Source: Desulfofarcimen acetoxidans DSM 771
Lineage (GTDB): Bacteria; Bacillota; Desulfotomaculia; Desulfotomaculales; Desulfofarciminaceae
DNA: 64,000 nucleotides
Direction: 5' to 3'
Assembly: GCF_000024205.1 (NCBI RefSeq)
Contig: NC_013216.1
Coordinates: 620,001 to 684,000, forward strand
The position numbers and the translations under genes are program-made. Below the pieces are notes generated by a model. It made no database searches. It worked only from the letters and a program-made list of their open reading frames with translations, and had not been told where the DNA came from. Position 1 is the first letter of the stretch. Every line of letters begins with the position of its first letter. This document shows, one piece after another, positions 30,965 through 43,040 of this stretch.

Positions 30965-31156
30965 TGTATATTTTATGAGTATAGCTGATCCCGAAAGATG
31001 CTCCGAAGCCTCCTGACAAACGGCGCAGAGAAAATAAATCCTCCGGCAGGTACTGACACCGGAAAATCCATAAAGAGCAAAGAATATGTGGCTGCGCAAA
31101 AGCATGGCAATATATAATATCTTACCGGCAAATTTAAGCGTATGGAGGGTCATCCC

Positions 31157-33631
31157 ATGAAAAAGAGCAAAACGCTCAAAAGAGAGCGCGTCAACCGCGC
31201 ACTCATGAACATATTTGAATATCCGCTGACCATCGTGGAGGCGCCTATGGGCTATGGCAAGACCACGGCTGTGCGGGAATTTCTTGCAGCGAGAGACGTG
31301 CGGGTCTTGTGGACCTCCTTTTATTCAGATAGCGATACGGGGGAGGCATTTTGGGACAGGGTGGTGATGGCGGCCGGCAGCTTCGATGAGATGGCAGGCA
31401 AGCGGCTGAAAGGCTTTGGTGTTCCCTCCGACGCATTGCATGTCAGATCGTTCCTTTCCCTTATGAATGACTTGGATTATCCGCCGGATACGACCCTTGT
31501 CATAGACGATATCCACTACGCAAGAGACATCCTGCGCCCCGAGCTTTTCGGATGGTTTATCACGGAGCTGCCCGATGATTTTCATATTGTCCTCATCACC
31601 CGGGATATTTCCTTCCTCGACCTTGCGGAGCTTTTCGCCAAGGGGCTGTGCAATATCGTGTCCCAGCAAACCTTGCGTTTCACCGGCGAGGAGCTCCGCG
31701 CCTACTGTATCCTGATGGATTTCCGCCAGGGCGAGGACGCGCTGGAAAAGGTCAGCAAATACACGGGAGGCTGGATATCCCTGGCATATTTAATCCTGCT
31801 GGGGCTGGAACAGGGAATTCCCATAGGCCAAAGCAGCGTGATCAATGAGCTGGTGGAGAAAATTCTCTACAACGCTTACGACGAAACGATTCAAACATTT
31901 CTTCTGCGCCTTTCCGTTATGGATACCTTTACGGAGGAACAGGCCCGGTATGTGACGGAGGAAAAACGTGCCGGCGAAATTCTGAAAAAGCTGCGTCAGG
32001 AAAATGCCTTCGTTTTCTACGACGAGGCAATAGGCGTTTACCGAATCCATCATGTGCTGTCGGATTTCCTGCGGGCCAGACAGACGGATCACGCGGAGGT
32101 TTCTTTGCTCTACCGGCAGGTGGGTGAATGGTTCCTTGAGAAAAAGGCGTTCAAGCCGGCCTATGCCTATCTTTGCCGCGCCGGGGAAACAGAGCGTGTC
32201 CTATCCCTTTTGGACGAGGAGGATGCCATTACCAAGGACTCCTCCGAATTTGAGGGTGCCCCGGAAATGTATGCCGCCGCACCCCGGAAGCTGCTTTTTC
32301 AGTATCCGTTTGCCTATCTGCAATATATCGCCTCGCTGCTCCTTTTCAGCGGCGACCCCGCTGCGGCGCGGGACGCCGTATCCCGCCTTGACGAGCTGGA
32401 GGAACATTACCGGCGGATTGCGGATATCCACCCAAACCGCCGCAGCCGCGTCCTTGCGGAAATCAGCGTCGTGCGCATTTTCGCTGTGTTCAATGACGCG
32501 CGTCAAATGGTGGACTGCACCAACAAGGCGCTCCGGCTTTTGGAGGGAGGTGTTTCATGCCTGGTCAGGCGGGATGCCGAATTCACCTTTGGCTCACCCC
32601 ATTTCCTGTACACCTATTACAGAGAGCCGGGAAGCTTAAAGGAAACGGCGGAATTTATGGCTGCCGAATTCCCCGTATTTCCAAGAATCTCCTCCGGTTG
32701 CGGCACGGGCTGCGACTATGTGACGCTGGCCGAACACGCGCTGGAAACAGGGGACTGGCAGGCGGCGGAGCTGAACGCCTTCAAAGCCATATACAAGGCT
32801 CAGACAATGGAGCAGACCGGCATCATCCTCTGCGCCGGACTGACGCTTGTTCGGTTTTATATCTATCAGGAAAAGATAATCGAGGCGCTGGAGCATCTGC
32901 GGCAGCTCCGGGCTGATGTGTCCAAGGAAGATAACGCCGTTTACAACACCACGCTGGATTTGATCGAAGGCTATGCCTACGGCTGCATGACCCGGCCGGA
33001 CAGCATCCCCGAGTGGCTGCGGACAGGCGAACTATCCATGGCCAACTTCATGTATCGAGGCATGGCGTTTAACTTTATCGTCTATGGCAAGGCCGTGCTG
33101 CTGGCAAAGGACTACATCCGTCTGGAGATACTGACCGAAACCTTTCCGCAATACTTTGGTATTTTCCATAATCAGCTCGGCTTCCTGCACAATCATATCC
33201 TTGCCGCCGCAGCCAAATACCGCCTGTACGGGATGGAGAAGGGCTGCGCGGCACTTGCGGAAGCAATCGGCATGGGGCGGGCGGATCACCTGATTTTGCC
33301 CTTTGCGGAGTATGCGCCCGAAATGATTGACATGCTGCGGCATATCGCACAAAACAATTCCGGTGACGGCTACATCATAGAACTGCTCGAAGCCTGTGAA
33401 CACTACATAGAAAGTCTGAGCCGCGCCCCAGAGAGTACCGTGACGCTCACGGAGCGGGAACTGGAGGTTCTGACCCTCGCCGCCGAAGGGCTCAGGCGGA
33501 ACGAAATTGCCGCACGACTATATGTGTCCGGGACCACAGTTAAGACGCATCTGGCGAATATCTACCGGAAGCTGGAGGTTGGCGGCAGGACTGCGGCCGT
33601 AAAAAAAGCCGGGAAGCTGAAAATTATTTGA
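31157..33631 (+). CDS. LAL/MalT-type LuxR family transcriptional activator
   Basis: An 824-residue regulator; ATG 31157 is preferred because GGAGGG lies 7 nt upstream, inside the longer frame from 31142. It has an N-terminal STAND-type ATPase with Walker A APMGYGKTT (K35) and the Walker B-like TTLVIDDIHYA, a long helical repeat region, and a C-terminal LuxR HTH (LTERELEVLTLAAEGLRRNEIAARL, split as TERELEVL and VKTHLANIYRKL). MalT-like activators bind an inducer or partner protein. It is the first gene of the GC-rich island and probably controls the genes after it. Confidence 0.92.
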   Translation: MKKSKTLKRERVNRALMNIFEYPLTIVEAPMGYGKTTAVREFLAARDVRVLWTSFYSDSDTGEAFWDRVVMAAGSFDEMAGKRLKGFGVPSDALHVRSFLSLMNDLDYPPDTTLVIDDIHYARDILRPELFGWFITELPDDFHIVLITRDISFLDLAELFAKGLCNIVSQQTLRFTGEELRAYCILMDFRQGEDALEKVSKYTGGWISLAYLILLGLEQGIPIGQSSVINELVEKILYNAYDETIQTFLLRLSVMDTFTEEQARYVTEEKRAGEILKKLRQENAFVFYDEAIGVYRIHHVLSDFLRARQTDHAEVSLLYRQVGEWFLEKKAFKPAYAYLCRAGETERVLSLLDEEDAITKDSSEFEGAPEMYAAAPRKLLFQYPFAYLQYIASLLLFSGDPAAARDAVSRLDELEEHYRRIADIHPNRRSRVLAEISVVRIFAVFNDARQMVDCTNKALRLLEGGVSCLVRRDAEFTFGSPHFLYTYYREPGSLKETAEFMAAEFPVFPRISSGCGTGCDYVTLAEHALETGDWQAAELNAFKAIYKAQTMEQTGIILCAGLTLVRFYIYQEKIIEALEHLRQLRADVSKEDNAVYNTTLDLIEGYAYGCMTRPDSIPEWLRTGELSMANFMYRGMAFNFIVYGKAVLLAKDYIRLEILTETFPQYFGIFHNQLGFLHNHILAAAAKYRLYGMEKGCAALAEAIGMGRADHLILPFAEYAPEMIDMLRHIAQNNSGDGYIIELLEACEHYIESLSRAPESTVTLTERELEVLTLAAEGLRRNEIAARLYVSGTTVKTHLANIYRKLEVGGRTAAVKKAGKLKII

Positions 33632-33675
33632 TTTTGCGGAGCAATATACTCCGTTTGGACGATACCAATTTTAAA

Positions 33676-33714
33676 AAAACCCCTTATACTTTAATCGTAT
33701 GGGGGGTTTTAAAA
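33676..33714 (+). terminator. terminator after the LAL regulator
   Basis: AAAACCCCTTATAC (33676-33689) pairs with GTATGGGGGGTTTT (33697-33710), 14 bp with two G-T wobbles, followed by an A/T-rich tract. Confidence 0.7.
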
Positions 33715-33747
33715 TTTCTACCGCCCCAAAGAAAGGAGGCGCCTTCA

Positions 33748-34005
33748 ATGAGCAAAATGCTCAAGGTAACGCCGGGAGACGATTATACCCTGCTCGTGGA
33801 ATTTGAACACGGCAACAGCATCCTCTTTCACATGAAAGATTTAATTGAAACCATGCCATATAGCAGCTTGAAGGATTTGAGCCGTTTCAAGGATATCACA
33901 TTGGAGGAAAAGGCCATCCGCTGGCCCGACCCCGTACCCGGGGAAGCGGCGCTATACCCCATTCGGCTGACAGTGGACAACATTCTGTTCGCCATAAGGG
34001 AGTAA
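33748..34005 (+). CDS. DUF2442 domain protein
   Basis: An 85-residue protein; ATG 33748 lies behind AAAGGAGG, which decides against the longer frame that crosses the terminator. It has the DUF2442 pattern (KVTPGDDYTLLVEFEHGNSI, then FKDITLEEKAIRWPD, IRLTVDNIL). The family is small, of unknown function and often carried near toxin-antitoxin or mobile genes. It lies 48 nt upstream of the giant surface protein. Confidence 0.8.
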   Translation: MSKMLKVTPGDDYTLLVEFEHGNSILFHMKDLIETMPYSSLKDLSRFKDITLEEKAIRWPDPVPGEAALYPIRLTVDNILFAIRE

Positions 34006-34053
34006 AGCGGAGAAGCTGTACGAATCAATTTTGAGAAGTAAAGGGGAATGAAC

Positions 34054-37000
34054 ATGAAAAAAGCAAAAAGACTATTGACGCTTTTACTGACCGCTTTCAT
34101 GATATTTGCCATGCTGCCGCCGATGGCAACGGCGGCGGGGGTGACAAGGCTTGAGGCGGAGAACGCGATCACGTCCGGCGGTGCCGGAGTTGCCGACGGA
34201 CAGGCGGGCGCGTCGGGCGGCAAAGTGGTAGGATACTTCAACTCCACAGCCGATTCCGTTACCTTCGCCGGCTTACAGGAAGCTGCGGGCGTTGTGATTG
34301 GTTATTCGAGCGTCTATACGGGGACGATCAGTATCTACTTAAATAATACGCATGTCCGGGACGCAGCGTTTACTTCTACCGGCGGCTGGACGGGTGCGGA
34401 GCACTTTAAAACGATTGTTCTTGATATCGACATAAAAAGTGGCGACAACCTGAAAATTCAACGTGATTCGGGCGATGTGGCCTTGAATGTGGATTACCTT
34501 GACTATTCGCCCTTCACGCCTATACCGGCGGACGGCGCCATCACGGCGGACGGCACATATAACCTGTCCGCTTACAGCGGCGACAAGGCCATTACGATTA
34601 CGGCGGGTCGTACCGTCACCTTGACGGGCGGCGGCACGACCTTCACCAAGTCCGGAATCAACTGCGGAACGGGCGTTAACCTGACGCTGAACAACGTGAC
34701 CATAAATCATAGTAGCTGCGCCCTCGCCTTCACTGGCGCGGGCAATACGCTGACGCTTGTGGGCGCAAGCAGCCTGCGAAGCGGATATGAGCAGCCCGGG
34801 GTTAAGGTGGAAGGTGCCACGGAACTAACCATCCGGGGCAACGGTTCGCTCTCGGCATACGGCGGTAAATTCGGCGCGGGCATCGGCAGCCCTGGCAGCG
34901 GCAGCCCTGGCAGCGGCGGAGTAATCACCATCGACGGCGGCACGGTAACGGCCACTGGCGGCGAATACGGCGCGGGTATCGGCGGCGGTTCCCTTGGCAG
35001 CGGCGGAGTAATCACCATCGACGGCGGCACGGTAACGGCCACCGGCGGCGAAAACGGCGCGGGCATCGGCGGCGGCTACCGTGGCAGCGGCGGCAAAATC
35101 ACCATTAAAAAAGGCAAGGTAACGGCGAATGACGGCTCCTTTGCCGCGGGCATTGGCGGCGGCGGCAGCGGCGGCGGCGGGACCATCACCATCACGGGCG
35201 GTGAGGTGACGGCAACCAGCGGCAGCAACAGCGGCGGCGCGGGGATCGGCGGCGGAGGCGGCTCAGTCGGAGGCAACGGCGGCACCATCACCATCAGCGG
35301 CGGCAAGGTAACGGCCACCGGCGGCGGATACGGTGGCGCGGGGATCGGCGGCGGCCGGGGCAGAGGCGGCGGCACCATCACCATCAGCGGCGGTACGGTA
35401 AAAGCAACCAGCATCGCCCAAGGCTCGGGTATCGGCGGGGGCGGAGGCGGCGCCACCGCTGTCGCCGGTGACGGCAACATCATAAAGATCAGCGGCGGTT
35501 CGGTAAACGCGATCGCCGGCAGCGATATCGATAAGATCGGCGGCGGCGGAGGCGCAGGGGCTACCCCCTCCGACGCGTTGGAAAACGGGGACGGCGTTGA
35601 GGTGTACCTCACCGCCATACGGCTTGTGGGCGGCGACACGGGAAACGTGGCGATATCGTCGCTGGCCACCGATTTGGACGGTTATGACCTGAACGATGTT
35701 TTCAGCGACAGCTCCGGCAAGCTGTACCTTTATCTGCCGCAGGGAACGAAGATCACGGGGGTGAACGCCGCCGGCATAATATTTGCGGGTAATGCGGTCA
35801 CGGGGAGCCCGCCCACGGAGCATACTTTCGAGTGCGACCTCCCGCCTGACGAGCGGATTACAACCGACCTTAACCACCTTGTCTGGGACGCCATAAAAGG
35901 CAGTAACAGCGAGCAGGCTGATGTGAAGGTCGCCTTAAACCTGCCCAAGACAGGGGAAAACGGGACGACCATAGCATGGAGCGCATCCCCCACGGGAATT
36001 ATTAACACCGATACGGGCACGATAACCAGGCCGCTTGACAGTGCCAAAGCGGTTAGTTTGTCGGCAACGGTTTCCTATGCGGGCGGGACGGCAAAAACAA
36101 AGACCTTTAACCTGACGGTTCCCAAACATACGGGAAGATTTGAGGCGGAGGACGCGGTCATCGTCAGCGGGAGTATTTTCAGCGGCGCGGAGGCTGCGGG
36201 AGCTTCGGAAGGGAAGCAGGTCGGAAATCTTAGCGTAAAGGGAATCAGCAGCGTCGAATGGAGCAGCCTGCCCGCGTCGTCCTCGGTCGAAATCCGCTAC
36301 GCAAGCCAAAACAACGGAACGATCAGCATCTATAAAAACGGCACGCACGTCATGGACGCCTCGTTCACCGCCAGCGGAGGATGGTACGGCGAGGGGCGCT
36401 TCGCCAGCTTATGGCTCTCTTTGGAAATCGCCGCCGGTGATAGCATAACAGTACGGTATGACGACGGCGACGCGGTTTTGAATCTGGATTATATCGAGTG
36501 CTACATAAGCTCATTCGAAAACGCCTCCATCAGCCCGGCAAGCGGGACGTTTGACAAAACCCATCCGGCGGATGTGACCACGACCATCCAGTGGAACGAC
36601 GCAGCCGCCGTGAAGGATGTAAAGGCGGGCACAGCCTCCATCGGCGCCGCGAATTACAACGTGAGCGGAAACACGCTGACCGTCAATAAGGGCTATCTTG
36701 CGACCCTGCCCATGGGCGAAAAGGTTTTGACCGTCGAGTTTCAGCGCGGGGCCTCGGCGACGCTGACCGTCAACATCACAAAATCGTGGGGTACGACCAT
36801 TGCGGCGGACGGCACATATAACCTGTCCGATTACGGCAGCAATAGCGCCACTAAGATCAATACCGGACTGACCGTCACATTGGAGGGCGCCGCCGCGACT
36901 TACACCAATGTCACATTCTACTGCGAAGCGGGCGTCAAGCTTACGATTAACAACGTGAACATCGACAACAGCGCCTGTCATCAAGTCTACGCCCTCTCTT

Positions 37001-40000
37001 TCACCGGTGAAGGCAGCACGCTGACGCTCGCCGGAACGAATACGCTCAAGGGCGGTGCAAGAGAGCCCGGCTTAAAGGTGGAAGGCACCACACAGCTCAC
37101 CATCCGGGGCAGCGGTTCGCTTACGTCAACCGGAGGCGAATTCAGCGCGGGCATCGGCGGAGCCATCAACTGCGCCGGCGGCATCCTCACCATCGACGGC
37201 GGAACGGTAACGGCCATCGGCGGCAGCAGCGCCTCAGGCATCGGCGGAGGACATAACTGCGGCGGCGGCACCACGACCATAAACGGCGGCACGGTAACGG
37301 CCAGCGGCGGCCAGTACGGCGCGGGCATCGGCGGCGGCAATACCGGCGGCGGAGGCAATACCATTATAAACGGCGGTACGGTAACGGCTACCGGCGGCGT
37401 CGGCAGCGCGGGTATCGGCGGCGGTTACAATGCCATCGGCGGCAGCACTGTTACCATAAACGGCGGTACGGTAAAGGCAAGCGCCGGCAGCCTGGGCGCG
37501 GGTATCGGCGGCGGCGGCTCTAATGTTATGGGTAATGTGCCCGGAACAGGTACCGTCACCATCTCCGGCGGCACGATAGAGGCAAAAGGCGGCGGAAGCG
37601 GCGCGGGCATTGGCGGCGGCGGAGCTAACGGGACTTCCGCCGGAGGAGAAGGCGTCGTGACCATCACCGGCGGTACGATAACGGCAAGCGGCGGCGGCGC
37701 GGGTATCGGCGGCGGCAACAATTTGGGGTCTTCTTTTTATAGCGGAGGAGCGGGCGTCGTTACCATCACCGGCGGCTCGGTAAACGCAGCCAGCACCGGC
37801 GGTGCCGCGAGCATAGGCGGCGGCAAGGGCTCCATCGGCAGCACGGTAAAGAACGCCGCCGGCGCTGATGTGCACCTCACCACCATACAGCTTTCGGGCA
37901 GCGGCGCGGATAACGCGGCGGTATCGTGGCTGACCACCAATTTGGCCTATACCTATGGTGTGAAAAATGTATCCAGCGACAGCCTTGGCAAGCTGTACCT
38001 GTATCTGCCCCAGGAAACGGTAACCACGAAGGTAGGCGTTCCCAGCGGAAATATATTTTCCGGAAACGCAACCACGACAGCCACGCCCGCGACGTTTGAG
38101 TTTCCGCTTTCCGCCCTCACGCCCGACGTGCGAATCGAAGCCGCCATTGCCCTCCTTGACTGGAACACCATAAAAGGCGGCAACAGCGCGGAGAATGATG
38201 TGAAAACGGCTCTTAACTTACCAAAGACAGGGGCGAACGGCACGGCCATAGCATGGAGCGCCTCCCCCACGGGGATTATTAACATCGATACGGGCGGGGT
38301 AGCAAGGCAGCTCGACGGTAACAAAGCGGTTACTTTGACGGCGACGGTTTCCTATGCGGGCGGGACGGAAAAGACAAAGACCTTTAACCTGACGGTTCCC
38401 GCAACTACGGGAAAGTTTGAAGCGGAGGATGCGGCTACTAACGCGAGGATTTTCGGCGATGCTCAGGCTGTGGGCGCTTCGGGAGGAAAACAGGTTGGGG
38501 ATATCAATAAAGTGGGCAGATACGTCCAATGGAACAACCTGCCCGCGTCGCCTATGGTTGAAATCCGCTACGCCAGCCCAAACAGCGGAACGATCAGCAT
38601 TTACAAAAATGGCGCGCATATTCAAGACGTTACATTCGCCTCTACGGGTGGTTGGTACGGCGAAGGGTGCTTTGGCAGCCTATGGCTTCCTTTGGAAATT
38701 GCCAGCGGAGACAGCCTGAAAGTTCAATATGACACGGGTGACGCGATATTGAATCTGGATTATCTCGCGTGTTACGCAAGCCCGATCGAGGGTGCCGTCA
38801 TCAGCCCGGCCAGCGGGACCTTTGACAAAGCTGCGCCGGCGAATGTGACCGCGACCGTCACCTTGAACGACGCGGTTTCCATATCCGACATCAGGGCGGG
38901 TACAACTTCCATCGGGACGGAAAGCTACAGCGTGACCGACATCGACGGCGCCACAGCCACCCTGGCCATCAATAAGGAATATCTGGCGGTAAAGGCCCCG
39001 GGCAGCCTCGTATTGACTGTCGTATTCGCCAAAGGCGCACCGGCGACGCTGACCATAGCGATTAACGATGCGGTACCGGATACCCCAGTCAGCATCGCGG
39101 CCATCACAGGTGTGACAGCTCCGGTATGCGGCGCGGCGCCTGCGGCAGGGATCATCGAAACGGCACAATACACCGGGACTGTGGCCTGGAATCCTGTCCA
39201 TAACCCTTTTGCGGCAAGCACGGTGTATACAGCGACCATCACTCTTACTCCTAAAGCCGGTTATACCTTTAACGGTGTTACCGGGGACTTCTTCACTGTG
39301 ACCGGAGCAACCGCGACCAACGCTGCCAATTCCGGCATAATCACGGCGGAGTTCCCGGCGACGGGAGCAGAGCCTGCGGTGACCTACAGCGTCACCTACG
39401 ACGCCAACGGCGGTACCGGCACCGCCCCGACAGAGAGTGTCAAAACCGCCGGCGCAACCTTCGCGGCGGCAAACAATACATTTACCCCGCCGGGCGGCAA
39501 GAAGTTCAAGTACTGGTATACCAATCCCCTTGGCACGGGAGGCACCGCTTACGCCAAGGACACGCCGGACGCGACGGTGACCATGCCGGCCCACGACCTT
39601 ATCCTCTACGCCGTTTGGGAAGATGTAAGCACAGCTGTCAAAAGAGGTTACCTGGAAGTCAAGACCCTGGCCGGAGGGGCAGTGAAGCTGAACGGCGATT
39701 CGGAGCCCCTTTTGACGGTATATAGCAAGCCGTGTGAAATGGGTGACTCCATTCGCCTGGAAGCCGAGGCAAATCCGGGATATATCTTTGCTTATTGGCT
39801 GAACGTGGAAAGCTCAAGTGTCATTTCCACCAGCCCGGATTATGAAATCATTATGGGATCAGGGATTAACCTGATAGCGGTGTTCAGCAAAGCTCCCGCC
39901 GCGGGGGATACCTGGTACACAGTGACGTTTAAAGACAAGGCCGGAAGAATTCTGCAAATGACGAGTGTGGCGAAGAACGGATCGGTAACTCCACCCGCCG

Positions 40001-40671
40001 CCCCACCGTTGTTCGGATATACCTTTTCCCACTGGAGCCAGCCCTCAAACAATATAACCTCCGATCGGGTGATCACCGCTGTCTATCTAAGAGATACAGT
40101 TACGGGCACCCATACGGTAACCGTGACGGGCGGAACCCTGTCCACGGGCGGAACTGCAGGCAGCTACAAGTTCGACATGCCGGTAACGGTGGTGGCGGAC
40201 GGCGCGCCGGAGGGGCAGAAGTTCAGTCATTGGGAGCAGGACGGCGCAAAGGTGAGCACGAAATCCACGTTTACATTCTTTACCCCTATGGAGAACACCA
40301 CGCTTGTCGCCGTGTTTGTTGACATCGGTGAGGAGATTGAAAATAAACCGTTTATCACATTGTCTGATGATGTAATGGTAAATTCGACAAACGGGACCAT
40401 CATGTTCACGGCAATCAAGGATCTTCCGGCTGGCTTCACTTTGGTGGAGAGCGGCGTGTTGCTGCTGAAATCAGCGGCACCGGTGACTGTGGATACGCCA
40501 AACGTAATTCTCGGCAAAATACTGGATACCTCCGCCAACCAGTTCTATATCATCAAGGGGAATGTCGAAGACGGCGACACCTGGTACGGGAGAGCCTATT
40601 TGATTTACAAGGACAGCGAAGGCAATACGGCAACGGTATACAGCGCTAATATTGCGCAGGGAACGAGGTGA
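34054..40671 (+). CDS. giant secreted Gly-rich beta-repeat protein
   Basis: A 2205-residue exported protein; ATG 34054 has AAGGGG 7 nt upstream (34048 is an alternative). A signal peptide (about 1-29) is followed by a twice-repeated block: a carbohydrate-binding-like domain (RLEAENA, RFEAEDA), a Gly-rich parallel-beta repeat array (about 270-500 and 1020-1260), and an Ig-like domain (LNLPKTGxNGTxIAWSASPTGII). A third carbohydrate-binding-like unit (KFEAEDA) follows, plus two X2-like domains (ISPASGTFDK). The C-terminal third has an Ig-like module, an InlB-type repeat (VTYDANGGTGTAP), several bacterial repeat modules and a final about 110-residue domain. There is no LPXTG, SLH or membrane anchor. 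A likely role is surface adhesion or sugar binding. Confidence 0.85.
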   Translation: MKKAKRLLTLLLTAFMIFAMLPPMATAAGVTRLEAENAITSGGAGVADGQAGASGGKVVGYFNSTADSVTFAGLQEAAGVVIGYSSVYTGTISIYLNNTHVRDAAFTSTGGWTGAEHFKTIVLDIDIKSGDNLKIQRDSGDVALNVDYLDYSPFTPIPADGAITADGTYNLSAYSGDKAITITAGRTVTLTGGGTTFTKSGINCGTGVNLTLNNVTINHSSCALAFTGAGNTLTLVGASSLRSGYEQPGVKVEGATELTIRGNGSLSAYGGKFGAGIGSPGSGSPGSGGVITIDGGTVTATGGEYGAGIGGGSLGSGGVITIDGGTVTATGGENGAGIGGGYRGSGGKITIKKGKVTANDGSFAAGIGGGGSGGGGTITITGGEVTATSGSNSGGAGIGGGGGSVGGNGGTITISGGKVTATGGGYGGAGIGGGRGRGGGTITISGGTVKATSIAQGSGIGGGGGGATAVAGDGNIIKISGGSVNAIAGSDIDKIGGGGGAGATPSDALENGDGVEVYLTAIRLVGGDTGNVAISSLATDLDGYDLNDVFSDSSGKLYLYLPQGTKITGVNAAGIIFAGNAVTGSPPTEHTFECDLPPDERITTDLNHLVWDAIKGSNSEQADVKVALNLPKTGENGTTIAWSASPTGIINTDTGTITRPLDSAKAVSLSATVSYAGGTAKTKTFNLTVPKHTGRFEAEDAVIVSGSIFSGAEAAGASEGKQVGNLSVKGISSVEWSSLPASSSVEIRYASQNNGTISIYKNGTHVMDASFTASGGWYGEGRFASLWLSLEIAAGDSITVRYDDGDAVLNLDYIECYISSFENASISPASGTFDKTHPADVTTTIQWNDAAAVKDVKAGTASIGAANYNVSGNTLTVNKGYLATLPMGEKVLTVEFQRGASATLTVNITKSWGTTIAADGTYNLSDYGSNSATKINTGLTVTLEGAAATYTNVTFYCEAGVKLTINNVNIDNSACHQVYALSFTGEGSTLTLAGTNTLKGGAREPGLKVEGTTQLTIRGSGSLTSTGGEFSAGIGGAINCAGGILTIDGGTVTAIGGSSASGIGGGHNCGGGTTTINGGTVTASGGQYGAGIGGGNTGGGGNTIINGGTVTATGGVGSAGIGGGYNAIGGSTVTINGGTVKASAGSLGAGIGGGGSNVMGNVPGTGTVTISGGTIEAKGGGSGAGIGGGGANGTSAGGEGVVTITGGTITASGGGAGIGGGNNLGSSFYSGGAGVVTITGGSVNAASTGGAASIGGGKGSIGSTVKNAAGADVHLTTIQLSGSGADNAAVSWLTTNLAYTYGVKNVSSDSLGKLYLYLPQETVTTKVGVPSGNIFSGNATTTATPATFEFPLSALTPDVRIEAAIALLDWNTIKGGNSAENDVKTALNLPKTGANGTAIAWSASPTGIINIDTGGVARQLDGNKAVTLTATVSYAGGTEKTKTFNLTVPATTGKFEAEDAATNARIFGDAQAVGASGGKQVGDINKVGRYVQWNNLPASPMVEIRYASPNSGTISIYKNGAHIQDVTFASTGGWYGEGCFGSLWLPLEIASGDSLKVQYDTGDAILNLDYLACYASPIEGAVISPASGTFDKAAPANVTATVTLNDAVSISDIRAGTTSIGTESYSVTDIDGATATLAINKEYLAVKAPGSLVLTVVFAKGAPATLTIAINDAVPDTPVSIAAITGVTAPVCGAAPAAGIIETAQYTGTVAWNPVHNPFAASTVYTATITLTPKAGYTFNGVTGDFFTVTGATATNAANSGIITAEFPATGAEPAVTYSVTYDANGGTGTAPTESVKTAGATFAAANNTFTPPGGKKFKYWYTNPLGTGGTAYAKDTPDATVTMPAHDLILYAVWEDVSTAVKRGYLEVKTLAGGAVKLNGDSEPLLTVYSKPCEMGDSIRLEAEANPGYIFAYWLNVESSSVISTSPDYEIIMGSGINLIAVFSKAPAAGDTWYTVTFKDKAGRILQMTSVAKNGSVTPPAAPPLFGYTFSHWSQPSNNITSDRVITAVYLRDTVTGTHTVTVTGGTLSTGGTAGSYKFDMPVTVVADGAPEGQKFSHWEQDGAKVSTKSTFTFFTPMENTTLVAVFVDIGEEIENKPFITLSDDVMVNSTNGTIMFTAIKDLPAGFTLVESGVLLLKSAAPVTVDTPNVILGKILDTSANQFYIIKGNVEDGDTWYGRAYLIYKDSEGNTATVYSANIAQGTR
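34857..35550 (+). repeat. first array of Gly-rich beta-repeats in the giant protein
   Basis: About eight imperfect coding repeats of 23-30 residues, with core ITIxGGTVTATGG followed by GAGIGGG. The DNA is strongly GC-rich. The pattern fits stacked beta-helix rungs. Long reverse-strand frames here are composition artefacts. Confidence 0.85.
37117..37840 (+). repeat. second array of Gly-rich beta-repeats in the giant protein
   Basis: About nine units of the same type as the first array (GGTVTASGG, GAGIGGG), in a second copy of the surrounding domain block. The two arrays are about 2.26 kb apart and differ in rung number and spacing. Confidence 0.85.
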
Positions 40672-40676
40672 CGACG

Positions 40677-40799
40677 ATGAAAAAGCCCTACGAAAGCCCG
40701 GAAATCGAAATCACCGAATTTGAGATCAGCGAGAACATCACCACCATCACCGCCAGTAGTGATGAGCAACTCGGGGCACCTATGGGATGGTATGAATAA
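40677..40799 (+). CDS. 40-residue peptide, candidate modified-peptide precursor
   Basis: A short gene starting 5 nt after the giant-protein stop. The peptide opens MKKPYESPEIEITEFEIS, continues with ENITTITASS and ends in a different, Gly/Pro/aromatic tail (APMGWYE). An acidic leader-like half followed by a Thr/Ser-rich stretch and short tail fits a RiPP precursor or a tagged substrate peptide. I recall similar MKKxYExPxxEI small ORFs in clostridia, with no known function. It is followed by a strong hairpin and then by genes for an HprK-like kinase, a PqqD-like protein and a peptidase. The role is inferred from this setting only. Confidence 0.72.
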   Translation: MKKPYESPEIEITEFEISENITTITASSDEQLGAPMGWYE

Positions 40800-40801
40800 C
40801 C

Positions 40802-40840
40802 AAAACAGGCAGGCGGAAGTTATCTGCCTGCCTGTTTTAC
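40802..40840 (+). terminator. terminator/attenuator after the peptide gene
   Basis: AAAACAGGCAGGC (40802-40814) pairs perfectly with GCCTGCCTGTTTT (40826-40838), 13 bp, 11-nt loop. It lies 2 nt after the peptide stop and would keep the kinase-PqqD-peptidase transcript below that of the peptide. Confidence 0.85.
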
Positions 40841-40885
40841 TAAAGCGTAAAAATTTAGCGGTAGCGGAAAGGAGTGATCACTTTG

Positions 40886-41605
40886 ATGTACAAAATAGCC
40901 GGCCTGAATGTAAAGATGGAATGCTCGGGAGAGACACTGCTTACGCAGGGAGAACCCTACCGGACCGCTGCCGCTGGTCAGCCGGACATGATAATAGATA
41001 TCAGCGATGAAGCGCTGGTAAAGATAAAAGAGAGTTATCCCCAGTTTTGCTTTGACGAATGGGAGTATATCCATAAGGGCTTTGCCTTTTCCTACAAGCT
41101 GCTGGAGCACTCCGGCTTCTGTCTTCACGCTTCGGCGGTGGCGATGGGCAATAAGGCCGTGCTGTTTTCCGCTCCCTGCGGGACGGGAAAATCAACCCAC
41201 GCGGGATTATGGCAGCAGTATTTCGGCAAGGATAAGGCGGTTATCATCAACGACGACAGGCCCGCATTGCGCCTGCTCGGAGATGAAATCTATGTATATG
41301 GGACGCCGTGGAGCGGAAAAACCAATCTGAACGCCAATATTAAAGTACTCTTGCAGGCGGTTGTCTTTCTAAAACAGGCAGGAGAAAACCATATTGAAAG
41401 GCTTACCAATAAAGAGGCCATAAAGCGCCTGATCCGCCACAGCATACGCCCCAACCACGACAAAGGTAAAATGGACGCACTTTTGACCCTGCTGGACACC
41501 CTGCTGCAAAAAACACCTGTATACCATTTGGATTGCAACATCAGCATGGACGCTGTAAAGCTCGCTTATGACACCATAAACAAAAGGATGAGATGTATAA
41601 TATGA
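40886..41605 (+). CDS. HprK-like serine kinase domain protein
   Basis: A 239-residue protein with the HPr kinase fold core: LHASAVAMG followed by Walker A SAPCGTGKST (about residues 96-104), then AVIINDDRPAL with the acidic pair, and YGTPWSG. The N-terminal 75 residues are a separate small domain. It lacks the HprK N-terminal domain and resembles kinases of modified-peptide clusters, some of which phosphorylate a precursor peptide. ATG 40886 is preferred; an upstream GTG at 40874 overlaps the ribosome site. It overlaps the PqqD-like gene by 4 nt. Confidence 0.85.
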   Translation: MYKIAGLNVKMECSGETLLTQGEPYRTAAAGQPDMIIDISDEALVKIKESYPQFCFDEWEYIHKGFAFSYKLLEHSGFCLHASAVAMGNKAVLFSAPCGTGKSTHAGLWQQYFGKDKAVIINDDRPALRLLGDEIYVYGTPWSGKTNLNANIKVLLQAVVFLKQAGENHIERLTNKEAIKRLIRHSIRPNHDKGKMDALLTLLDTLLQKTPVYHLDCNISMDAVKLAYDTINKRMRCII

Positions 41606-41865
41606 GAATTAAAGAGGGATATCTTTTGCGGGAAGTTGCGGGAAGCCATGTAGTCGTGCCTACCGGTAAAGCAACCCTTGACTTTACCGGTGTGATCACC
41701 CTGAACGAAACAGGCGCGTTTCTGTGGAAGCTGCTTGCCGATGGTAAAACCGGTCAGGAACTGCTCGGGGCCCTGCTGGAAGAATACGATACCACTGAGG
41801 CAAAGGCAAAAGCAGATATTGATTTATTCCTTACTAAACTTAAGGCGGCTGATTTGATTGATTAA
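41602..41865 (+). CDS. PqqD family peptide-binding protein
   Basis: An 87-residue PqqD-type protein, the fold that binds leader peptides of ribosomal natural products. ATG 41602 gives the typical start MRIKEGYLLREVAGSHVVVP and an ATGA overlap with the kinase gene. Other family features are FTGVITLNETGAFLWKLL and the helical tail LLEEYDTTEAKAKADIDLFL. It is likely the recognition partner for the 40-residue peptide. An alternative start lies at 41593. Confidence 0.88.
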   Translation: MRIKEGYLLREVAGSHVVVPTGKATLDFTGVITLNETGAFLWKLLADGKTGQELLGALLEEYDTTEAKAKADIDLFLTKLKAADLID

Positions 41866-41875
41866 AATAGCGGCG

Positions 41876-42337
41876 ATGTCGGAGCTTCACCCTCTGATAG
41901 TGGAAACTCTGCAAAACGACGGAAAAGTAATTCTTACCATAACGGGAACCAGTATGCTGCCTCTGCTGCGCCACAAAAAAGACCGGGTATTCTTGATTAA
42001 GCTGCAGGAGCGGCCCTTAAAAAAACATGACCTTCCCCTGTTTGTACGTGAGGATGGCAAATACATATTGCACAGGATTATAAATGTAGCGCGGTCGGGA
42101 TATGTAATTGCCGGCGATAACCAATGTGTCACAGAATATCCGGTACGGCATGCCCAGGTGATAGGCGTTGTTCAGGGAATATGGCGCGGTAGCAGATACA
42201 TCTCCTGCGGCGGTTTTTTATACCGGGCCTACAGCATACTTTGGGTATCCGCATATCCCCTTCGGCGGCTGTATTTAAGAGGAAAACAGTTTTTGCACCG
42301 GACAATCAGGTATTTAAAATACCGCAATGGGGATTAG
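41876..42337 (+). CDS. S24/S26-like peptidase with Ser-His motif
   Basis: A 153-residue signal-peptidase-like protein. The nucleophile is S26 in TGTSMLPLLRH; the general base position is H66 in ILHRII, as in SEC11-type enzymes, not the Lys of bacterial LepB; D81 lies in AGDNQ. There is a moderately hydrophobic C-terminal stretch (about 107-128) but no N-terminal anchor. It follows pqqD closely (the longer TTG frame at 41858 overlaps it). It may cleave the leader of the neighbouring peptide. Confidence 0.8.
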   Translation: MSELHPLIVETLQNDGKVILTITGTSMLPLLRHKKDRVFLIKLQERPLKKHDLPLFVREDGKYILHRIINVARSGYVIAGDNQCVTEYPVRHAQVIGVVQGIWRGSRYISCGGFLYRAYSILWVSAYPLRRLYLRGKQFLHRTIRYLKYRNGD

Positions 42338-42341
42338 AAAA

Positions 42342-42407
42342 ATGAAGGATAAACAAACGCTTCTTTGGCTTTATGAAAATTCAAAATCGCAGCTTGAATA
42401 TGTATGA
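42342..42407 (+). pseudogene. truncated start of a fourth cassette gene
   Basis: An ORF of 21 codons (MKDKQTLLWLYENSKSQ and four more) starts 4 nt after the peptidase stop and breaks off exactly where the duplicated toxin-antitoxin segment begins (42409). In related cassettes a nucleotidyltransferase-type gene often follows, which I recall only loosely. It is best read as a gene cut off by the segment's arrival. Confidence 0.45.
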
Positions 42408-42478
42408 ATATTGGATAATATTTTTGATTGCGGGGTATAATTATGGTATAATAATACCACTGAGAGGAGTTGGTGTTT

Positions 42479-42739
42479 ATGCCAAAAATAATCCCTATTC
42501 GAGACTTGAAAAATACAAGTGAAATCTCTCAAATGTGTCAGGAGGCATCTGAACCAATATATATTACCAAAAATGGTTATGGCGATATGGTCATCATGAG
42601 CGTAAAAATGTACGAAGAAAAATTGTATATGTTGGATATATATAATAAACTGGCTGCCGCCGAAACGCAAATAGCTGAAGGAAAGGTGCTTGAAGGGGAT
42701 TCTTCTTTGAAAAGTATAAGAGAAAAATACAATGTATAA
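42479..42739 (+). CDS. Phd/YefM-type antitoxin, copy 1
   Basis: An 86-residue antitoxin; the N-terminal DNA-binding part has IIPIRDLKNTSEISQMC and EPIYITKNGYGDMVIMS, the classic Phd/YefM pattern. ATG 42479 lies behind GAGAGGAG. An imperfect palindrome GGTATAATAATACC (42445-42458) overlaps a TATAAT -10 and is a likely autoregulatory operator. It overlaps the toxin gene by 8 nt. Confidence 0.9.
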   Translation: MPKIIPIRDLKNTSEISQMCQEASEPIYITKNGYGDMVIMSVKMYEEKLYMLDIYNKLAAAETQIAEGKVLEGDSSLKSIREKYNV

Positions 42740-43040
42740 GTTAGTTGTTTCGGAACTTGCCCATGAGGATTTGGACAATATCGTAGCGTATATTGTTGTC
42801 GAGCTTGCAAACCCCATAGTTGCTGCAAATTTCCTTGATGAGGTTGAAAAATACTACGGCTATTTGAAAAATAATCCGTTTATGTATGAACGGTGTCATG
42901 ATGCTCACCTGGAAAAGGAAACCTACCGAAAGGCAACCATTAAAAACTATGTGCTGGTTTATAAGGTTGATGAACCAAATAGAGTGGTTATCATTTATCG
43001 CTTTTTTTATGGTGCTCAGGACTATGTAAAACTAATATAG
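42732..43040 (+). CDS. RelE/ParE family toxin, copy 1
   Basis: A 102-residue toxin of the RelE/ParE superfamily with HEDLDNIVAYIVVELANP near the N-terminus, then ERCHDAHLEKETYRKATIKNY and a C-terminal VVIIYRFFYGAQDY. Such proteins cut mRNA on the ribosome or poison gyrase; which applies here cannot be told. Its start codon lies within the end of the antitoxin gene. Confidence 0.9.
   Translation: MYKLVVSELAHEDLDNIVAYIVVELANPIVAANFLDEVEKYYGYLKNNPFMYERCHDAHLEKETYRKATIKNYVLVYKVDEPNRVVIIYRFFYGAQDYVKLI

Follow-up and report, generated by a model that had tools for sequence, protein, structure and literature searches.

The closest described counterpart of the locus analysed here is the system of linear polyphosphorylated peptides (LPPs), encoded by the lpp cluster of Paenibacillus alginolyticus, a member of the Bacilli (Popov et al., 2026; PMC13381572). 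According to the main text of that study, the genes lppA-K-B-S-D-N encode a precursor, an HprK-like kinase, an RRE, an archaeal-type signal peptidase, an MsbA-like exporter and an NTP transferase. The RRE binds a YxxP leader, LppK adds several phosphates to Ser3 of the core, and LppS cuts after the leader with the assistance of the RRE (PMC13381572). In the case studied there, LppK depends on a Ser adjoining the leader. What LPPs do biologically is described in the same text as unknown, and the role of the NTP transferase is left open. A literature search found no paper on this system besides PMC13381572. An HprK kinase, an RRE and an NTP transferase are also common to lasso peptide clusters of the paeninodin/pseudomycoidin type (PMC8498205), and SynChlorMet includes an HprK-like protein (ScmC) and a PqqD-like protein (ScmD).

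The window, meaning the whole 64,000-nucleotide stretch of the Desulfofarcimen acetoxidans DSM 771 genome that was analysed, very probably contains a truncated LPP-type gene cluster in a variant found in Desulfotomaculales and Clostridia, a grading that includes the mechanism proposed below. The features concerned are as follows:

34048..40671, + strand: giant secreted surface protein of 2207 aa (Pfam: beta-helix repeats, CBM_X2, aBig_2, InlB-like repeats)
40677..40799, + strand: precursor peptide of 40 aa, LppA-like (ORF, family HMM, dN/dS)
40689..40706, + strand: YESPEI, the RRE-binding motif YxxPx[LVI] of the leader (alignment; motif from PMC13381572)
40755..40760, + strand: Ser27-Ser28, predicted phospho-acceptors (position matches the conserved ITxS; by comparison with Ser3 of the LppA core in PMC13381572)
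40802..40838, + strand: hairpin between precursor and enzyme genes (MFE -32.7 kcal/mol, z -5.0)
40874..41605, + strand: HprK-like kinase, LppK-like (AlphaFold2 fold, invariant residues)
41593..41865, + strand: PqqD-type RRE, LppB-like (PF05402, E 4e-18)
41858..42337, + strand: archaeal-type signal peptidase, LppS-like, a putative leader peptidase (motifs, fold)
42342..42407, + strand: truncated start of an ABC exporter gene, LppD-like, reading MKDKQTLLWLYENSKSQLEYV and then stop (homology to the intact sister copy)

The precursor ORF begins 5 bp downstream of the stop codon of the 2207-aa secreted protein and translates to MKKPYESPEIEITEFEISENITTITASSDEQLGAPMGWYE, in which a leader beginning MKKPYESPEIEITEFEISEN is followed by a variable tail. 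The peptide gene is real, conserved and under purifying selection (dN/dS 0.11-0.21 across sister copies and the nearest relative). Each of the three kinase genes in the host genome, the window copy and two paralogues, has a peptide with the same leader just upstream, and a leader-profile search recovered 54 related peptides across Desulfotomaculales and Clostridia, all sharing the strand of the kinase and, with few exceptions, located upstream of it. An earlier note, made from the letters of the window alone, had placed a 40-residue peptide beside genes for a kinase, a PqqD-like protein and a peptidase; this arrangement holds at the coordinates above and is more than a chance association, and the search of other genomes that the note had called for found it conserved. 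The strong hairpin and the coupling of the three downstream genes, also described in that note, were recovered as well, with the kinase, PqqD and peptidase genes standing in a row and overlapping. A hairpin 3' of the peptide gene recurs in the family, with z < -2 in 36/51 peptide genes compared with 56/182 control genes, and the one in the window is a probable attenuator. Approximately 11 of 51 peptides have no Ser in the expected stretch, a count that includes at least one in which the motif search misplaced the leader.

The kinase, for which ATG 40886 is the likely start, gave an AlphaFold2 model with pLDDT 93 whose closest folds are HPr kinase/phosphatase (HprK/P) and PEP carboxykinase (PEPCK). 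Residues H81, G99-T104 (the P-loop) and D123-D124, numbered from that ATG, are invariant. No solved structure was matched by the kinase sequence, and no relative was present on the viral contigs searched. The RRE has sequence relatives in the PDB among lasso RREs (TbiB1, PbaB1, TfuB1) together with LppB itself, and it carries all three LppB contact residues for the YxxP motif, N33, D70 and F74, which are kept in 112, 67 and 112 of 123 RRE homologues, respectively. For the peptidase, 82 sequences share the GxSM.P, HR and GD motifs with few or no exceptions, and S32, H72 and D87 are invariant or nearly so, this Asp being one candidate counterpart of LppS D93; these predicted catalytic residues and the fold, nearest to the Sec11 subunit of the human signal peptidase (SPC), agree with a Ser-His-Asp archaeal-type signal peptidase. 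Comparisons among sister copies and the nearest relative gave dN/dS values of 0.16-0.18 for the kinase and 0.16-0.31 for the RRE, so that purifying selection acts on these genes too, and of 0.21-0.35 for the peptidase, where constraint is weakest (0.35 between window and sister copy). A leader peptide with an RRE, a kinase and a Ser-His leader peptidase supports the phosphorylation and cleavage put forward in the earlier note. A role in defence was also considered and rejected, as PADLOC gave no match for the kinase, RRE, peptidase or NTP transferase.

Among characterised families, the resemblance is closest to LPP. Intact operons of the present family match it in all six gene functions and in their order: the sister copy and relatives combine the precursor with a signal peptidase (SpI), a discrete RRE, an HprK-like kinase, an MsbA-like exporter and an NTP transferase, the kinase and the transferase being putative counterparts of the published LPP proteins. 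Like LPP, the family has a YxxP leader, an RRE that is a separate protein and keeps the N/D/F contact residues, an archaeal-type signal peptidase and no cyclase, and lasso clusters coexist in the same genome. The 40-aa precursor lies within the 35-200 aa of LPP precursors and has their conserved N-terminus with YxxPx[VLI], here YESPEI, and variable C-terminus. The leader consensus, however, differs beyond that motif: the published YxxPxVLxHQxIxFETxxS is replaced by MKKxYExPEIEIxxFExEDIITxS, with EIEIxxFExEDIITxS where HQxIxFET would be expected, and because of this difference the locus is filed as an LPP variant. It also differs from LPP in its occurrence in Desulfotomaculales and Clostridia rather than Bacilli, in its tie to giant secreted and SLH proteins, as opposed to the capsule loci described in the main text of PMC13381572, and in the truncation of the window copy. 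The proposal of a new peptide-modification system is not supported, because this set of genes, arranged identically, had already been described in Bacilli in 2026 (PMC13381572); the locus belongs to an established RiPP type, from which it departs in its leader consensus, and represents no new modification chemistry.

SynChlorMet is a more distant match. The window kinase and PqqD protein are weakly similar to its components and missed the corresponding NCBIfam cut-offs (22 bits vs 125 for the kinase and 20 bits vs 100 for PqqD); the NCBIfam HprK and PqqD models likewise matched the kinase and RRE only below cut-off.

The truncation was evident from a sister copy with a complete operon in the same genome, at about 3.91 Mb of contig G000:C1. 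Homology to it covers 38118-42395, approximately 4.3 kb at 93% identity, and ends inside the exporter gene, which in the window runs for 21 codons and then stops. The two copies differ in the sequence after the peptidase and in the portion of the giant gene retained, and the window keeps the kinase, RRE and peptidase with the exporter stub, the NTP transferase being gone. The absence of a transporter, remarked on in the earlier note, is therefore correct for an intact gene in the window but not for the system: the missing transporter is the result of truncation, as seen from the stub and the intact exporter of the sister copy. Nor is it supported that no further enzyme belongs to the system, since the full operon includes an NTP transferase as well as the ABC exporter, both lost here by truncation. 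With neither of these genes, the window copy may be silent or decaying, and export of its product would need the exporter of the sister copy. Directly after the truncated exporter gene are genes for a Phd/YefM antitoxin and a ParE toxin (42470-43040). Upstream of the giant gene, at 31142-34005, are a MalT-like LuxR regulator and a DUF2442 protein, both kept in the nearest relative (L014); regulation of the locus by this pair is possible.

A genome scan recovered 80 further loci, nearly all in Clostridia, and the kinase was found in 110 of 391 sampled Clostridia genomes. In the sister copy and in relatives from the same taxonomic order, the operon reads peptide, kinase, RRE, peptidase, ABC exporter and NTP_transf_5; those relatives have a large secreted protein before the peptide and, optionally, an SLH protein between peptide and kinase. 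Seven loci (L060, L069, L072, L076, L083, L097, L104) form a subfamily in which long cores rich in Ala, Ser and Gly all end in a conserved SIGSDLIIG-type tail; its gene order is peptide-kinase-ABC-RRE-peptidase-ABC. In six others (L089, L091, L095, L098, L100, L106), a dihydrofolate reductase (confirmed by Pfam in L089) comes after the kinase and RRE, a divergent SLH gene is present and no leader peptide could be recognised; the kinase/RRE pair thus has a second conserved context.

Given the functions shared with paeninodin/pseudomycoidin clusters (kinase, RRE, NTP transferase and exporter) and the presence of lasso-type clusters in the host genome, the locus could be read as a decayed lasso cluster that has lost its cyclase. 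Models for the macrolactam cyclase (Asn-synthetase-like) and the B2 transglutaminase-like peptidase, however, matched only the genome's own lasso clusters and none of the 80 related loci, in most of which a signal-peptidase-like enzyme takes the place of B2. The leaders have YxxP and not the WxxP of lasso precursors, and a C-terminal Ser is present in 0/38 peptides. Two of the three lasso-type clusters of this genome (RRE and B2 peptidase; L029, L030 and L031, at about 3.47, 2.51 and 1.67 Mb of G000:C1) do have WxxP precursors ending in Ser. Because the cyclase and B2 are absent, no C-terminal Ser occurs and the genome's own lasso precursors combine WxxP with a Ser end, the peptide is not regarded as a lasso peptide, and decay from such a cluster is very improbable. 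One of the lasso-type clusters (L030) is accompanied by phage tail-collar and F5/8-cadherin-like genes, with a large secreted protein upstream.

The link to the giant surface protein suspected in the earlier note was supported and is conserved in other genomes. A secreted protein of at least 400 aa lies directly before the peptide gene in 22/45 testable loci (further loci being cut by contig edges) vs 9/233 controls, counts that are approximate because a simple hydrophobicity criterion was used to call secretion. At several peptide loci, the protein encoded upstream carries the same C-terminal stretch as the giant protein, WYGRAYLIYKDSEGNTATVYS. SLH genes gather around the kinase, at distances of up to about 1 kb, and were confirmed by Pfam in L019, L032, L033, L041, L049 and L111, with L071 just under the cut-off. 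In the nearest relative (L014), the SLH gene that separates peptide and kinase is a pseudogene; in the window, no SLH gene is present in that gap, and this partner has been lost.

The peptides and their envelope-anchored neighbours can also share their C-termini. Five peptides (L111, L071, L063, L019, L015) match 6-8 of the last 8 residues of an SLH- or lipid-anchored protein of the same locus, as in L111, where the peptide ends in AEGDNGTGWG and the SLH protein in DEGDNGTGWG; among 141,353 cross-locus pairs, none reached 6 of 8. This is the restricted version of the C-terminus test, a comparison of all small ORFs having been swamped by repeats and overlapping frames. In L041 an internal segment, NDIADPWG, is common to peptide and partner, and in L049 the two share GIEDG. 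The tail-sharing regions, in locus coordinates, are:

L111, 6624-8063
L071, 798-2306
L063, 8675-10137
L019, 605-1964
L015, 8542-9822
L041, 6721-8929

Only 21 of the 35 residues shared by the five tail pairs have identical codons, and synonymous differences occur in all five pairs, which indicates that the match is kept at the protein level. A permutation over 12 loci gave p 5e-6, with the peptide's own partner in first or second place in 7 cases, although this set contains L063, which was picked because it matches; the comparison of 5 pairs with 141,353 is the unselected test. These data suggest, from sequence, that the core may have a twin displayed on the cell surface.

Added to the LPP explanation, the shared tails offer a possible function, in which the modified, exported core and the identical tail of the anchored partner would compete for, or mark, the same site. 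Whether the peptide would thereby regulate or anchor the upstream giant surface protein is a similarly tentative proposal. The tail identities and the clustering of large secreted and SLH proteins around the kinase speak for both. Against them, a clear tail match is limited to about 7 loci and the majority of peptide loci lack a neighbouring partner of this kind. In the window there is none: no surface protein elsewhere in the genome carries the tail of the window peptide, for which two peptide genes are the sole matches. In 40 fresh loci, of which 2 had a recognisable leader peptide, the single testable peptide/SLH pair matched at 4 of 8 residues. GDEFGWGDI-type tails of other peptide copies are confined to peptide genes in the 4 genomes searched, and an ADIVDY tail group (L032, L033, L035, L189, L256) is not locus-specific.

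Another explanation is that the surface proteins are the actual substrates of the kinase/RRE pair, the short peptide being merely a carrier or activator, as might be considered for those loci with a kinase, an RRE and a divergent SLH gene in which no leader peptide is recognisable. However, Ser, Thr and Tyr are all missing from the shared tails NQLPLG, VPGGEW and GGEIID, which rules out the shared segment as the phosphosite and makes it more likely a binding tag than a modified site, and the leader-adjacent Ser needed by LppK in the studied case (PMC13381572) also argues against this explanation, which we regard as decidedly unlikely.

For the preferred reading, an LPP-type cluster, the following mechanism is proposed. 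The YESP motif of the leader would dock on the PqqD-like RRE, and the HprK-like kinase, by analogy with LPP, would add at least one phosphate to a Ser immediately behind the leader, S27 or S28 being the probable target. The signal-peptidase-like enzyme would then cut the leader off at or near Thr25. In intact operons, the MsbA-like exporter would secrete the core and the NTP transferase would modify it further, while the hairpin after the precursor gene probably holds precursor transcripts above those of the enzymes. The product would most likely act at the cell surface with the large secreted protein encoded upstream. In Clostridia and relatives, the phosphorylated core could be a soluble twin of the anchored tail, with both predicted to bind one site, most likely on the giant protein; we advance this tentatively, at less than even confidence.

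The variant leader, the occurrence in Desulfotomaculales and Clostridia, the tie to surface proteins and the shared tails appear to be new, being absent from the main text of PMC13381572, whose 126 peptidases may include some of the present loci. The LPP-type family is thereby extended to Desulfotomaculales and Clostridia. The position of the peptides behind large secreted proteins, together with the identity of some cores with the tails of wall-bound neighbours, provides a first concrete, testable hypothesis for the role of LPPs; if the core is indeed a twin of the anchored tail, the peptide would control how the cell retains or presents the giant protein.
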